Assembly: GCA_017464045.1 (NCBI GenBank)
Contig: JAFUEG010000091.1
Span: 1 to 9,343, forward strand
Direction: 5' to 3'
From: Lachnospiraceae bacterium
GTDB lineage: Bacteria > Bacillota_A > Clostridia > Lachnospirales > Lachnospiraceae
Length of the DNA: 9,343 nt
The translations under genes and the position numbers were made by a program. Positions within the stretch are counted from its first letter, which is position 1; every line of letters begins with the position of its first letter. The notes beneath the pieces are model-generated. The model did not search any database. It saw only the letters and a program-made list of their open reading frames with translations, and had not been told where the DNA came from. Below, one piece after another: positions 3,916 to 7,311 of this stretch.

Positions 3916-4467
3916 CTACATCGTCTGCCCGCCGTTTCTTGCATCTACAGACTGAACAACGCTTGCAAAATTACTCTTAACGGCATTGGCAACCTGATCT
4001 GAATATCCGAAAATTATGCCCGGCCTTACAGGTGAAAGTACCTGCTGAAGTTCAGTAATTGCCACATCACATGGACGTTTCTTTGAAAAACCTCCTGTTG
4101 TTGCCAAACCAAGATTATGAGATTCTCCATCTCTTGTAACAGCCAATAGACTATGCTGCTTGCTGTATGGTATAAAATTCATACGCATGGTTGTTATACT
4201 TCCGTAAACCCAGATTAAATTTCTTGTAGGTATTACAAATAAAGCATGATTAGTCATATAAAGAATTGCTGTCTGTGTAACATACGCATTCATAATCTTT
4301 TTAGCATACGGAACCTGCTGTTCAAGACTCACAACTTCTTCCTGAGTAATGGTTCTCCAGCTTTCCTCTGATCTTTCCAACAGCTTTTTATTGAGTGCCG
4401 CTTTTCTGACTCCGCCAAGACTATTGGCAAAATTATTTAAATTAGGATAATTTGATAAATCTATCAT
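3916..4467 (-). CDS. Soluble protein of unknown function, DUF6709 / PH-like resemblance
   Basis: This 183-residue protein has no signal peptide or membrane helix. An N-terminal helical, charged part (about 20-60) precedes a segment with alternating strands (about 64-125): TQTAILYMTNHALFVIP, then NLIWVYGSIT, then NFIPYSKQHSLLAVTRDG and SHNLGLATTG. The pattern of a display strand followed by IP.xxLIWVY and NFIP resembles, from memory, the clostridial DUF6709 group and bacterial PH-like folds, but without the membrane segment I associate with that group. The tail (about 133-175) looks helical. The function is unknown and I do not assign one. ATG at 4467 is preceded by GGTGAGGG at about 7 nt. A good promoter lies at 4539-4568, and purE follows 104 bp downstream. 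Confidence 0.75.
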   Translation of the reverse strand: MIDLSNYPNLNNFANSLGGVRKAALNKKLLERSEESWRTITQEEVVSLEQQVPYAKKIMNAYVTQTAILYMTNHALFVIPTRNLIWVYGSITTMRMNFIPYSKQHSLLAVTRDGESHNLGLATTGGFSKKRPCDVAITELQQVLSPVRPGIIFGYSDQVANAVKSNFASVVQSVDARNGGQTM

Positions 4468-4538
4468 TGTTTTTCCCTCACCTTTTCATATTGTACATAC
4501 AAAACATATATGTCAGATTTTACAATTAGACATGTCCT

Positions 4539-4568
4539 ATTATAATACTTTATGTACTGATATTTCAA
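4539..4568 (-). promoter_or_regulatory. Promoter of the 183-residue gene (and probably purE)
   Basis: On the minus strand TTGAAA (4563-4568, 5 of 6) and TATAAT (4539-4544, 6 of 6) are separated by 18 bp. The start point would fall near 4532, inside the 8-bp palindrome GACATGTC (4529-4536). This gives a leader of about 65 nt that also contains a second palindrome, ACATATATGT (4504-4513). Palindromes at and just after the start point are possible operator sites, but no regulator can be named. Confidence 0.75.
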
Positions 4569-4594
4569 TAAATATATTTTTTTTGTTTCAACTT

Positions 4595-4623
4595 AATAAT
4601 TGCTTTGGCTCAAAGCAATTATT
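4595..4623. repeat. Perfect 13-bp inverted repeat in the divergent intergenic region
   Basis: AATAATTGCTTTG (4595-4607), a 3-nt spacer GCT, and its exact reverse complement CAAAGCAATTATT (4611-4623). It lies 26 bp upstream of the -35 box of the minus-strand promoter and about 80 bp upstream of the plus-strand -10 box. Neither strand has a T-tract after the stem (minus: AAGTTGAAAC, plus: GATATATAAC), so it does not look like a terminator. An operator or a small palindromic insertion are the remaining readings. Confidence 0.65.
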
Positions 4624-4702
4624 GATATATAACATACTTAGAACAAAACCTACTTTTTGAATATACAAAGTATATATTTTACTTCTTATTTCCTTAATTA
4701 TA

Positions 4703-4711
4703 TGTTAAAAT
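4703..4711 (+). promoter_or_regulatory. Weak extended -10 promoter of the GGDEF-EAL gene
   Basis: TG-T-TAAAAT (TG at 4703-4704, hexamer 4706-4711) is an extended -10 with a 5-of-6 hexamer. The -35 position at 17 bp spacing is only TTCTTA (4683-4688, 3 of 6), so activity would rest on the extended -10 or an activator. The predicted leader is about 47 nt. No c-di-GMP riboswitch fold is apparent in it. Confidence 0.4.
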
Positions 4712-4764
4712 ATAAATGTTATTTATTTCTTTAAACAATTACAAAAAAATTTTGGGGTGTTACA

Positions 4765-6729
4765 ATGGGTGATAAAATAAAATACAGCCTTGGGCTTAAC
4801 AAACATGATTCATATACCAAAAATCATATGGAGCTTGCTAATATGAAGGCAGTTATCTATTTGTCTGTATTTATTGTGTTCGTTGAGCTTTGGATCATTG
4901 AACGTATTATCACCATAGTTTTGTTTGACAGTGAACCACGAACTACCCGATGGATCATCACCCATCTTCGTTCTTATGTTATTCTTCTTTCAGCAGCTGT
5001 ATTCATGCTTGTACATGCAACCCGTTATCTGAAGGGCAAACGTCTTTCTCACAGCACAAATCTGATTATTCTTGCTGTTTATTCAGCTATCTGCATATAT
5101 TTTGGTATGTATGTTTCATACCTTGATTACATAAAGGGCGAACAGATTTTAAGCTTCATAACAATGATTCTATTTTCCTGTTGTCTTTTGGTTTGGCGCC
5201 CTATCATATCTTTTATAGTTCTCTCTGCAACATTTTTGCTCTTTTATCATATATGCTCCAATGAAGTACCTGCAACAGTAGCTACCAATATCAATCTTTT
5301 TACAACCTGGATGGCATGTCTTATGATAAGTATAAGTATGTACCACCAGCGTATGTCCGAAGCAAGAAAAGATGCAAAGCTTGAAAAAGCAAATAACGAA
5401 CTTCATATTACAAATGAAAAGCTTGAGGAAAGCAATTCCCATCTGGAGCGTGTTTCAAGACGCGATGAATTAACCGGCATTGCCAATATGAGACAGTTCG
5501 GTAAAACCGCAAAGCTGATGTTAAAGGAGGCTTTTGAAAAGGGACAGGATTTATATTTCTTATATTATGATATAGAGCATTTCAAAACCTATAATGAGCA
5601 ATACGGCTTTGAAGAAGGCAATAATCTGCTTCGTGATATAGCCAGTGAGCTATCTGTATTATATGAAGGAAGCGCTTACGCAAGGTATTCTGATGATCAT
5701 TTTATCGTCCTTACCTCCGAAACAGATGCACACGAAAAGACCGAGGCTCTTGCCAACTGGCTTCACGAACACCAGGGTGAAGCATTTCTTGATTTAAAGG
5801 TTGGTGCTTATAAGGCAGAAGAAGGTGTCGGAGTATCCATCTCAATTGACCATGCGCGTTTTGCCTGCAACAGCATCAAGATGAACGCCGAAAAGCATTT
5901 TTGTATATATGATAATTCACTTTATGAGAAACAAAAGCGCAAGCAGTACATAATAAATCACCTTGATTTTGCGATTGAAAACGAATATATAGAAGTATTT
6001 TATCAGCCTGTCATATGGACTAAAAATAAAAAGGTATGCGGACTTGAAGCCTTATCACGCTGGAGAGATCCGGAGTACGGTCTTCTTCCTCCGGGCGAAT
6101 TTATAGAAACTCTTGAGGATGTCTGTATGATTCATAAGCTTGATAAATATGTTGTCGAGAGGGTTTGTAAGGATTATAACGAAGCAAAAAAATCCGGCAA
6201 AAAACTTTTGCCGATTTCACTTAATTTTTCACAGCTTGATTTTAATCTATGCGATATGGTTGATTACGTTATCGATACCGCAAAAAAATACAATGTTCCA
6301 AAAGAATATCTGGAGATAGAAATTACCGAAAGCGCCCTTTCCAAGGAGCATGAGCTTTTAAAGGACGCCATGCAGCGATTTCGTGAGAAAGGCTTTAATA
6401 TATGGCTTGATGATTTCGGAAGCGGTTACTCTTCACTTAATGTTCTTAAGGATTTTGATTTTGATGTTCTTAAGATTGATATGCTCTTCCTTGACAACTT
6501 TGAAGAAAATGCCAATACCAAGCCTATCATCAACATAATAATAAATCTTTGTAAAAGACTTAACATACGCTCTCTCACTGAGGGAGTTGAAACCGAAGAA
6601 GAATTTGAATTCTTAAAGGAAATCGGCTGTGAAAGAGTCCAAGGCTACTATTTCAGCAAGCCGGTACCAAAATCCGAACTTGAAAGTCTTATTGAAAGCA
6701 ATAAGCTTATTTTATCCGATGAATTATAG
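4765..6729 (+). CDS. Membrane-anchored c-di-GMP phosphodiesterase with degenerate GGDEF (GGDEF-EAL protein)
   Basis: This 654-residue protein probably hydrolyses c-di-GMP to pGpG at the inner face of the membrane. The N-terminal part has about six hydrophobic helices (near 27-54, 63-85, 98-118, 125-144, 146-164, 172-192), forming a sensor-like membrane domain of unknown ligand. A charged coiled coil (about 195-230) links it to a GGDEF domain (about 231-385: RDELTGIAN 233-241, YYDIEHFKTYNEQYG 267-281). The signature there is S309-D-D-H-F313 instead of GGDEF, so cyclase activity is unlikely; such domains often serve as GTP-sensing or structural partners. The EAL domain (about 392-645) keeps E428-A-L, N487, E519-I-T-E522, DDFGSGYSSL (549-558), K570-I-D, E606-G-V-E609 and QGYYFSKP (626-633), as expected of an active enzyme. 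GGGGTG sits 5 nt before ATG. It is the only plus-strand gene here and converges on atpC. Confidence 0.93.
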   Translation: MGDKIKYSLGLNKHDSYTKNHMELANMKAVIYLSVFIVFVELWIIERIITIVLFDSEPRTTRWIITHLRSYVILLSAAVFMLVHATRYLKGKRLSHSTNLIILAVYSAICIYFGMYVSYLDYIKGEQILSFITMILFSCCLLVWRPIISFIVLSATFLLFYHICSNEVPATVATNINLFTTWMACLMISISMYHQRMSEARKDAKLEKANNELHITNEKLEESNSHLERVSRRDELTGIANMRQFGKTAKLMLKEAFEKGQDLYFLYYDIEHFKTYNEQYGFEEGNNLLRDIASELSVLYEGSAYARYSDDHFIVLTSETDAHEKTEALANWLHEHQGEAFLDLKVGAYKAEEGVGVSISIDHARFACNSIKMNAEKHFCIYDNSLYEKQKRKQYIINHLDFAIENEYIEVFYQPVIWTKNKKVCGLEALSRWRDPEYGLLPPGEFIETLEDVCMIHKLDKYVVERVCKDYNEAKKSGKKLLPISLNFSQLDFNLCDMVDYVIDTAKKYNVPKEYLEIEITESALSKEHELLKDAMQRFREKGFNIWLDDFGSGYSSLNVLKDFDFDVLKIDMLFLDNFEENANTKPIINIIINLCKRLNIRSLTEGVETEEEFEFLKEIGCERVQGYYFSKPVPKSELESLIESNKLILSDEL

Positions 6730-6730
6730 T

Positions 6731-6895
6731 GAGTTATAGGGCGTGAGCCTTGTCACATAAGAAGTATAAAATCGAGAACACCAAAAAGTTACTAAGCAAA
6801 GCGTGAGCGCCAGTGAGCTTTGCGTGTAACTATTTTGGTGTTCTCGATTTTTATACCATAATATTGGGTATGACAAGGCTCACGCCCTATGACTC
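6731..6895. repeat. 165-bp nested palindromic element filling the convergent gap
   Basis: The outer arms 6731-6755 and 6871-6895 pair over 25 bp with one G-U wobble (6735/6891); the core word is GGGCGTGAGCCTTGTCA. After an asymmetric internal loop (8 nt left, 14 nt right) a 23-bp middle stem follows (6764-6786 with 6833-6856, one bulged T in the T-run 6848-6852). A 6-bp stem (6787-6792 with 6826-6831, A6832 bulged) and a 7-bp apical stem GCAAAGC/GCTTTGC (6796-6802 with 6817-6823) close on a 14-nt loop. In all, about 60 pairs form within 165 nt. It begins 1 base after the stop of the GGDEF-EAL gene and ends 2 bases before the stop of atpC. GCGTGAGC occurs in the left outer arm and again at the apex. 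It contains no ORF of note. It could be a composite bidirectional terminator, a non-autonomous palindromic mobile repeat, or both. Confidence 0.9.
6764..6856. terminator. Bidirectional intrinsic terminator core inside the palindrome
   Basis: The middle stem, built on TCGAGAACACC / GGTGTTCTCGA, is followed by a T-tract on both strands: GATTTTTATAC on plus (6846-6856) and GATTTTATAC on minus (complement of 6764-6773). It can therefore terminate the plus-strand GGDEF-EAL transcript and the minus-strand atp operon. A further plus-strand T-tract, TCTTTT (6894-6899), follows the outer stem. Confidence 0.75.
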
Positions 6896-6897
6896 TT

Positions 6898-7311
6898 TTA
6901 ATCAACTTTATGGCCGCCGTCTCTAAGGCCTGCCATGGCTCTTTGCATCATAAGCTCAGCCTCGAGATATTCTTCTACACTTTTCTTTTGAAGTCTTGCT
7001 TCGATAAGCTCCTCTTCCTTTTCTCTGGCACGGTTTATCTCTACCTCATCCGGTCTTTCGGCATGATTAATGAGGATTAATACATCGTTATTTTCAACCC
7101 TCATCATGCCCTCGGAGACGATAACATATTCTACTGTGCCATCCGGTAAAGTATAGTGCATATTTCCCGGAACGATAGCTATAACGACATTTCTGTGGTT
7201 AGCCAATACACCATACTCTCCGTCTATCGCAGGGACTACTACCGAAGTAAGCTCCCCTTCAAAAAACGGACTGTCCGCCTCATATATTCTTGCTTTAAAT
7301 GTATGCTCCAC
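6898..7311 (-). CDS. atpC: F1F0 ATP synthase subunit epsilon
   Basis: This is the central-stalk epsilon subunit (137 residues) of the F1 sector, which couples to gamma and restrains ATP hydrolysis. Residues 1-85 form the beta-sandwich domain, with the family pattern FFEGELTSVVVPAIDGEYGVLANH (16-39) and PDGTVEYVIVSEGMMRVENNDVLIL (56-80). Residues 88-132 are the charged helical hairpin (ERPDEVEINRAREKEEELIEARL and following). The length is normal for the family. The start codon is GTG (7309-7311) with AGAGGTGA 7 nt upstream. It is the last gene of the operon, 88 bp after atpD; that spacer shows no promoter or terminator. The stop codon lies 2 bp from the long palindrome at 6731-6895. Confidence 0.96.
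   Translation of the reverse strand: MEHTFKARIYEADSPFFEGELTSVVVPAIDGEYGVLANHRNVVIAIVPGNMHYTLPDGTVEYVIVSEGMMRVENNDVLILINHAERPDEVEINRAREKEEELIEARLQKKSVEEYLEAELMMQRAMAGLRDGGHKVD

Follow-up and report, generated by a model that had tools for sequence, protein, structure and literature searches.

The window is a stretch of 9,343 nucleotides from a Lachnospiraceae bacterium (assembly GCA_017464045.1, contig JAFUEG010000091.1). Positions 6731-6895 form a nested palindrome, a hairpin within a hairpin, that fills the gap between a gene with GGDEF and EAL domains and atpC. Two tRNA genes are located on the minus strand at 27-97 and 128-202. The features of the locus are as follows.

3916-4467, minus strand: DUF6709-type gene, whose counterpart directly follows atpC at two related loci (L001 and L006)
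4765-6729, plus strand: gene with GGDEF and EAL domains (ORF, Pfam), stop codon TAG at 6727-6729 abutting the palindrome
6731-6755, plus strand: left outer arm, with the repeat core GGGCGTGAGCCTTGTCACAT at 6739-6758
6764-6856, no strand: inner stem, interior class S, an exchangeable cassette
6788-6830, no strand: apical hairpin GTTAC...GTAAC, a putative compact bidirectional intrinsic terminator, with an A-tract (6783-6787) and TATTTT (6831-6836) on either side
6871-6895, minus strand: right outer arm, inverted, with the 20-nt core at 6868-6887
6898-7311, minus strand: atpC, F0F1 ATP synthase epsilon (Pfam ATP-synt_DE_N), stop codon TAA at 6898-6900, 2 nt from the palindrome

The outer arms (6731-6755 and 6871-6895) are 25 nt long and 96% complementary, with 24 of 25 positions paired. 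The inner arms were placed at 6768-6802 and 6817-6851 by an inverted-repeat search, in which the outer and inner repeats were the two longest of six inverted repeats of the window (arms within 300 bp). Folding of 6725-6900 gave -96.7 kcal/mol for the plus strand (z -14.65; shuffle mean -37.94) and -92.1 kcal/mol for the minus strand (z -15.81), and none of 200 dinucleotide shuffles per strand was as good. A sequence-only reading had described a nested palindrome that fills a convergent gap and leaves flanks of 1 and 2 bases to the two stops; the inverted-repeat search, the folds on both strands and the stop codon positions (TAG 6727-6729, minus-strand TAA 6898-6900) confirm this. Its four stems of 25, 23, 6 and 7 bp hold for the outer one and are only close for the inner ones, as 6764-6856 folded alone gives 29 pairs interrupted by two one-base bulges, followed by helices of 7 and 2 pairs. 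The palindrome matches no Rfam family at the Rfam threshold, while the two tRNAs elsewhere in the window did match. A simple terminator scan gave no entry at the palindrome, because the loop and stem limits of the scan do not fit it. Origin of the window DNA from a plasmid or phage was rejected, there being no match in either collection at E 1e-5.

The window DNA matched 8 of the 8 closest genomes at E up to 10 and 8 of 37 genomes of the genus at E 0.001. A 17-nt core of the outer arm occurs 28, 50, 29, 2, 2, 10, 0 and 0 times in genomes G001 to G008, in this order (≤ 2 mismatches), and the reversed core, used as control, occurs once over all eight. The arm-rich genomes G001, G002, G003 and G006 are related rumen Lachnospiraceae draft genomes. 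The G004 contig with arm matches (L233, G004 C46) is 99.6% identical to G002 C48 over 8.7 kb and was probably misbinned or cross-assembled between two roe deer MAGs; because of this identity the two G004 matches were dropped as evidence. Across 299 genomes of the family, sampled from a larger group and not containing G001, G003 or G006, a 19-nt core is abundant only in G002 (45 matches), and the single matches in each of four other genomes are not above the reversed control (three single matches in three genomes). The arm family is thus dispersed and restricted to a small clade of rumen bacteria. About 1.85 Mb of fetched sequence, window included, contains 41 inverted pairs and 44 single arms (≤ 3 mismatches); the stretches of the four arm-rich genomes were fetched mostly around matches, some matches are not included, and the element density in them is therefore not representative. 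The multicopy palindromic family that had been asked of related genomes is found in these core matches (28, 50, 29 and 10 in G001, G002, G003 and G006) and inverted pairs, and the copy number of the core in relatives rules out an ordinary single-copy terminator. No earlier description of the arm family was found in the literature searched.

In a profile of the arms the core is accompanied by a looser outer stretch of the GTGTGTCAY kind and lies about 10 nt inside the apparent edge of the element. The arm unit fits the 20-40 nt palindromic extragenic type, single or in inverted pairs. Paired cores are 11-268 bp apart, and a pair measures 45-302 bp across both cores. Direct copies in tandem, spaced by 33-35 nt, occur at about 9917 and 9952 of L154 (G001 C11) and at about 94 and 127 of L100 (G003 C1). 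Clustering of the interiors, for which 280 nt behind the arm were used with single arms, gave class L with 32 members, mostly about 235 nt in pairs, class S with 22 members of about 100 nt, window copy included, and a remainder of small or single groups. Among 37 genomes of the genus, 9 contain matches to a class-L interior taken from G002 (weak in G018), at least 10 of them in G007 and at least 21 in G008 (the palindrome can match both strands), and neither of the latter two genomes has an arm match. The middle 143 bp of this interior occur at no fewer than 31 places in G002 (40 of 44 candidates scored). The class-L core is found again at loci L197-L216, where G001 and G003-G008 carry it with other outer arms that are nearly perfect; folding of the entire stretches, of up to about 470 nt, gave -150 to -195 kcal/mol in some cases. 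Another giant nested palindrome lies after atpC at 4414-4800 of both L004 and L005 (-173 and -186 kcal/mol over about 390 nt) and is repeated in G004 and G005; among 17 copies examined, the 15 with both neighbours called comprise 10 in codirectional, 5 in convergent and 0 in divergent gaps. A rare interior of the arm family (G003 C3, G006 C104) shares just a 38-nt stretch with the giant palindrome (79%, E 5e-5). L004 also carries two small adjoining ORFs at 5795-6420, with Pfam matches to RelB antitoxin and ParE toxin.

After the dropping of 13 three-mismatch single arms and the collapsing of orthologs, the elements occupy 51 distinct sites, of which 33 are in codirectional and 15 in convergent gaps, none in a divergent one, 2 within a called ORF and 1 at an edge. 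The distinct sites with an inverted pair are 18 codirectional, 12 convergent, 0 divergent and 1 at an edge. Background gaps of at least 100 bp in the same stretches, element-bearing ones included and with ORFs called by length only, number 420 codirectional, 76 convergent and 125 divergent, and against these the pair sites are enriched in convergent gaps (Fisher, p 2e-4) and depleted in divergent ones (p 0.003). The expectation of copies mainly between convergent genes was too strong, since 18 of 30 classified pair sites are codirectional, though convergent gaps are enriched. Both neighbours are called at 19 of 20 separately fetched class-L loci, which comprise 10 codirectional, 8 convergent and 1 divergent; one ORF at the divergent locus, L208, has just 62 aa.

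The arms lie close behind genes. Counted over all 126 arms, orthologs not collapsed, 78 face a stop codon at no more than 40 nt, and in 40 of the 78 the distance is 8-11 nt. Of the single arms with ≤ 2 mismatches (n = 31), 22 have the same sense as the nearest gene end and 7 are antisense to it, and 2 have no gene end within 600 nt. This spacing and strand bias would suit an arm that acts as a strand-specific RNA signal of the 3'-UTR (stabiliser, RNase or ribosome-related), the inverted pair giving both convergent mRNAs the same tail, and the single arms of G002 C34 and G002 C132 stand between a stop and the next gene with no interior. Such a role has an outside chance, as the distal arm of a pair in a codirectional gap is present yet serves no upstream gene, Rfam gave no match and pairing within the arm has no covariation support. 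Over the 126 arms, positions 2/9 read GC 98, GT 14, AC 13 and TC 1 times, and positions 3/8 read CG 93, TG 18, CA 10, AG 4 and CT 1 times. No covariation of an intra-arm hairpin was found among them, and a self-folding arm as a conserved RNA hairpin was rejected, as no compensated A-T or T-A occurs at 2/9 or 3/8.

The build of an intrinsic terminator, a hairpin followed by a T-rich tract, is present in the window copy and in the interiors of the family. Inspection by eye bears out the earlier statement that the inner stem supplies T-tracts in both directions: TATTTT (6831-6836, plus strand) and TTTTT (from 6783-6787, minus strand) lie behind the apical hairpin, and further T-tracts lie behind the longer stem on both strands. 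Among the 39 interiors that reach 60 nt (two pairs with shorter interiors were left out), 37 have terminator-like tails on both strands, compared with 64 of 195 mononucleotide-shuffled controls, so that about a third of shuffled interiors satisfy the same criterion. Two orthologous class-M interiors have such a tail on one strand only. At G003 C12/G001 C33 the element has a separate plain terminator as its neighbour, which counts against the mosaic terminator repeat proposed below. In the window copy only 1 and 2 bases are left to the stops, so that no other terminator fits there, and the element appears to be the sole evident terminator of atpC and the GGDEF/EAL gene. Judged by its sequence, it would end transcription in both directions by intrinsic termination, and it probably serves as a stop signal behind genes in both directions. 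With termination at the inner T-tracts, RNA polymerase would not reach the distal outer arm, and the outer stem would then be a matter of DNA or of read-through RNA. The proposal of a mobile palindromic family with its own bidirectional terminator is accordingly upheld in part: multiple copies, tails on two strands (37/39), enrichment in convergent gaps, the lack of any divergent gap among classified sites and relatives' sites without the element speak for it, and only its expectation on gap type is at odds with the 18 codirectional sites among the 30 classified pair sites.

Orthologous gaps differ in what they contain. Twelve ortholog alignments were made, one of which (number 53) was put down to chance, the match having three mismatches and lying within a coding gene. 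In 4 of the 12 a plain short terminator occupies the place that the element has in the other genome (G001 C39, G001 C31, G002 C19 and G003 C1, by eye); among these gaps, at G001 C1/G002 C4, the other genome holds one arm plus a hairpin and not a full element. At the gap that holds a pair in G002 C38, G001 C44 is without a hairpin, and the flanks join uncleanly. G003 C16 carries a 32-bp single arm that G001 C22 lacks. Partial and full forms also correspond: a single arm in G006 C8 to full elements in G001 and G003, an arm with hairpin in G001 C40 to a full element in G002 C22, and a single arm in G001 C5 to a pair in G002 C48. At G001 C39/G002 C19 the single arms agree. In a comparison outside the 12 alignments, arms enclose a core in G003 C31 and G006 C14, and G001 and G002 have at the same place the core with other inner arms and no outer arm. 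The window and G002 contain the same copy, with one compensatory change and two one-sided changes in the arm core. Scanning genomes with atpC as the query gave 12 loci. The GGDEF/EAL gene and the palindrome both follow atpC in the window and in L002, neither does so in L001 and L006, and L003 has another gene after atpC. Sites in relatives without the element, which the sequence-only reading had named as a check, thus exist for the family, as a plain terminator or as absence at orthologous gaps; for the window copy a clean empty site was not obtained, since L001 and L006 are also without the EAL gene and L003 has a different gene.

Paired positions change jointly. A sequence alignment of 14 class-S elements has standard pairing in 590 of 621 pair cells, and both sides have changed in 25 of its 45 pairs, a count made without shuffled control, on a structure predicted from the same alignment and with two row pairs being orthologs. 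The two arms of an element tend to carry the same variants, with 79 mismatches as compared to 123 on average and 105 at the least in 2000 shuffles, in a shuffle that takes no account of relatedness among elements. Over the whole family, 28 departures of arms from the consensus are shared by both arms and 76 are one-sided; when arm cores were compared directly between orthologs, both sides had changed at 4 positions and a single side at 20. Three of 9 ortholog comparisons, at 3 of 8 sites (52/16, 48/75 and 37/20), show interiors that face opposite ways, and at site 48/75/80 two genomes agree in orientation and G003 differs. The flipped interiors may instead be copies replaced from elsewhere in the other orientation, as some paralogous interiors are equally similar. 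In yeast, template switching homogenises the arms of inverted repeats and inverts their spacers (PMC8604942), and both patterns are seen here. On this ground the palindrome could be a strong terminator of the ordinary kind that became symmetrical at a single place through template-switch mutation, with no mobile family behind it; this is very improbable with the same core at 51 distinct sites in the fetched stretches. Template switching is refuted as a full account by copy number, yet it may explain the symmetry of the arms.

Candidates for a mobilising enzyme were also considered. The roughly 30-nt imperfect palindromic unit, its single, tandem and inverted-pair arrangements and its 3'-end location would agree with RAYT-mobilised REP/REPIN elements, in which a Y1 tyrosine transposase moves inverted REP units by single-strand transposition. 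The RAYT gene (PF01797) was found in none of G001, G002, G003 and G006, which are draft MAGs and may be incomplete; it is present in 2 of the 8 genomes (G004 and G008) and in 5 of 14 control genomes. A position profile of 105 arms (≤ 2 mismatches) revealed no GTAG or CGTC tag at the unit ends, and the intra-arm hairpin is without covariation. RAYT mobilisation was rejected as improbable on the absence of PF01797 from the arm-rich genomes. An autonomous element with these arms was looked for between seven +/- arm combinations 1.6-4.2 kb apart, and of the ORFs of at least 80 aa in the six intervals so defined in the fetched stretches none resembles a transposase by eye. A transposase-like ORF at L149:3349-4797 (G003 C43; 483 codons with stop, Pfam HTH_38), which we take to be of the IS30 kind, is located beside an element. 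It was rejected as mobiliser because it lies outside the arms and is absent from the orthologous gaps of G001 and G002. The ortholog alignments fixed no target-site duplication; one single-arm case of 32 bp is clean and lies in an A/T run, and the others are unclean.

The family is a variant within the dispersed palindromic 3'-end repeats and is assigned to none of the known systems compared. Nearest in behaviour is the pneumococcal SPRITE, described in PMC3049150 with 30 copies in the genome. Both are dispersed short terminator-like repeats near 3' ends with enrichment in convergent gaps, and for both no matching IS ends were found and no target-site duplication was established. SPRITE has one 18-bp stem with a U-rich tract and AAAA/TTTT ends, and is set apart here by description and not by sequence. 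The arm family, by contrast, is nested and has a conserved GC-rich arm core and a number of unrelated interiors; at orthologous sites it alternates with plain terminators, and its interiors occur in both orientations there. Nearest in build are REP and BIME (PMC3733652). The REP/BIME/REPIN literature (PMC3733652, PMC12306157) describes a 20-40 nt imperfect palindromic unit, single, tandem or in inverted pairs, mainly in unidirectional and convergent gaps, as in the present family; PMC2817692 and PMC3116915 belong to the same literature. The present family lacks the GTAG/CGTC tag, numbers tens of copies and has a bidirectional terminator-like cassette as its interior, and its arm-rich genomes yielded no Y1 transposase; in these points it is unlike REP/REPIN. 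The MITEs BOX, RUP and the bcr repeats share terminal inverted repeats, shortness and variable modules (PMC10969869, PMC3049150, PMC3446304). The 41 pairs are MITE-like in being short, with terminal inverted repeats and no transposase gene. They differ from these MITEs in that no parental IS with these ends was found, no target-site duplication was seen and the core lies about 10 nt inside the edge. The uptake-sequence terminators of Neisseria and Pasteurellaceae also combine a short repeat, complementary pairs and transcript ends, and are built from closely spaced complementary uptake sequences (PMC1852404). By this analogy the arm might be a binding or uptake site (DUS-like or operator-like) used secondarily in terminators. 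This is extremely unlikely, as a genome usually has 1,000 or more uptake sequences and their pair is itself the terminator stem (PMC1852404), whereas the arms number tens, are found mainly at 3' ends, are 11-268 bp apart and do not themselves form the terminator stem. The compared literature further included PMC2267715, PMC1525189 and PMC8355165, and the family was placed under none.

The window palindrome is probably a clade-restricted, non-autonomous mosaic repeat of BIME/MITE-like kind that carries a putative bidirectional intrinsic terminator. Roughly 30-nt REP-like units (core GGGCGTGAGCCTTGTCACAT), inverted, flank one of several exchangeable hairpin interiors. Each interior would end RNA synthesis both ways by its inner hairpin, with an A-tract before it and a T-tract behind. 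The element tends to lie directly behind stop codons, and at some sites it holds the position of a plain terminator in relatives. Copies may spread through transposition that relies on an enzyme acting in trans, or through ectopic copying, and template switching or recombination between the arms would keep them complementary and flip the interior. As a DNA feature, the complementarity of the outer arms could provide ends for a mobilising enzyme or reflect homogenisation by template switching. A wider reading, put forward tentatively and with less confidence than the mosaic repeat itself, is a self-remodelling mobile terminator system, in which clade-specific outer arms take up and exchange a common pool of bidirectional terminator cores, overwrite plain terminators of the host behind genes, stay palindromic and flip by recombination or template switching between their own arms. 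On this reading, the class-L interior in G007 and G008, where no arm was found, and the giant palindromes of L004 and L005 suggest that different clades use the same scheme with different outer arms.

If such a self-remodelling system exists, part of the transcript-end signals of the genome would be mobile DNA. Terminators are usually seen as static and local in origin, and here they might be supplied or replaced by a dispersed palindromic family. The orthologous gaps provide natural before/after pairs, a plain terminator versus an element in the same gap and an interior in either orientation, which bear on the effect of extra hairpin layers on termination, antisense read-through and mRNA 3' ends. 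The family also offers a bacterial case for how long palindromes stay symmetrical, whether by selection on RNA or by template switching in DNA.
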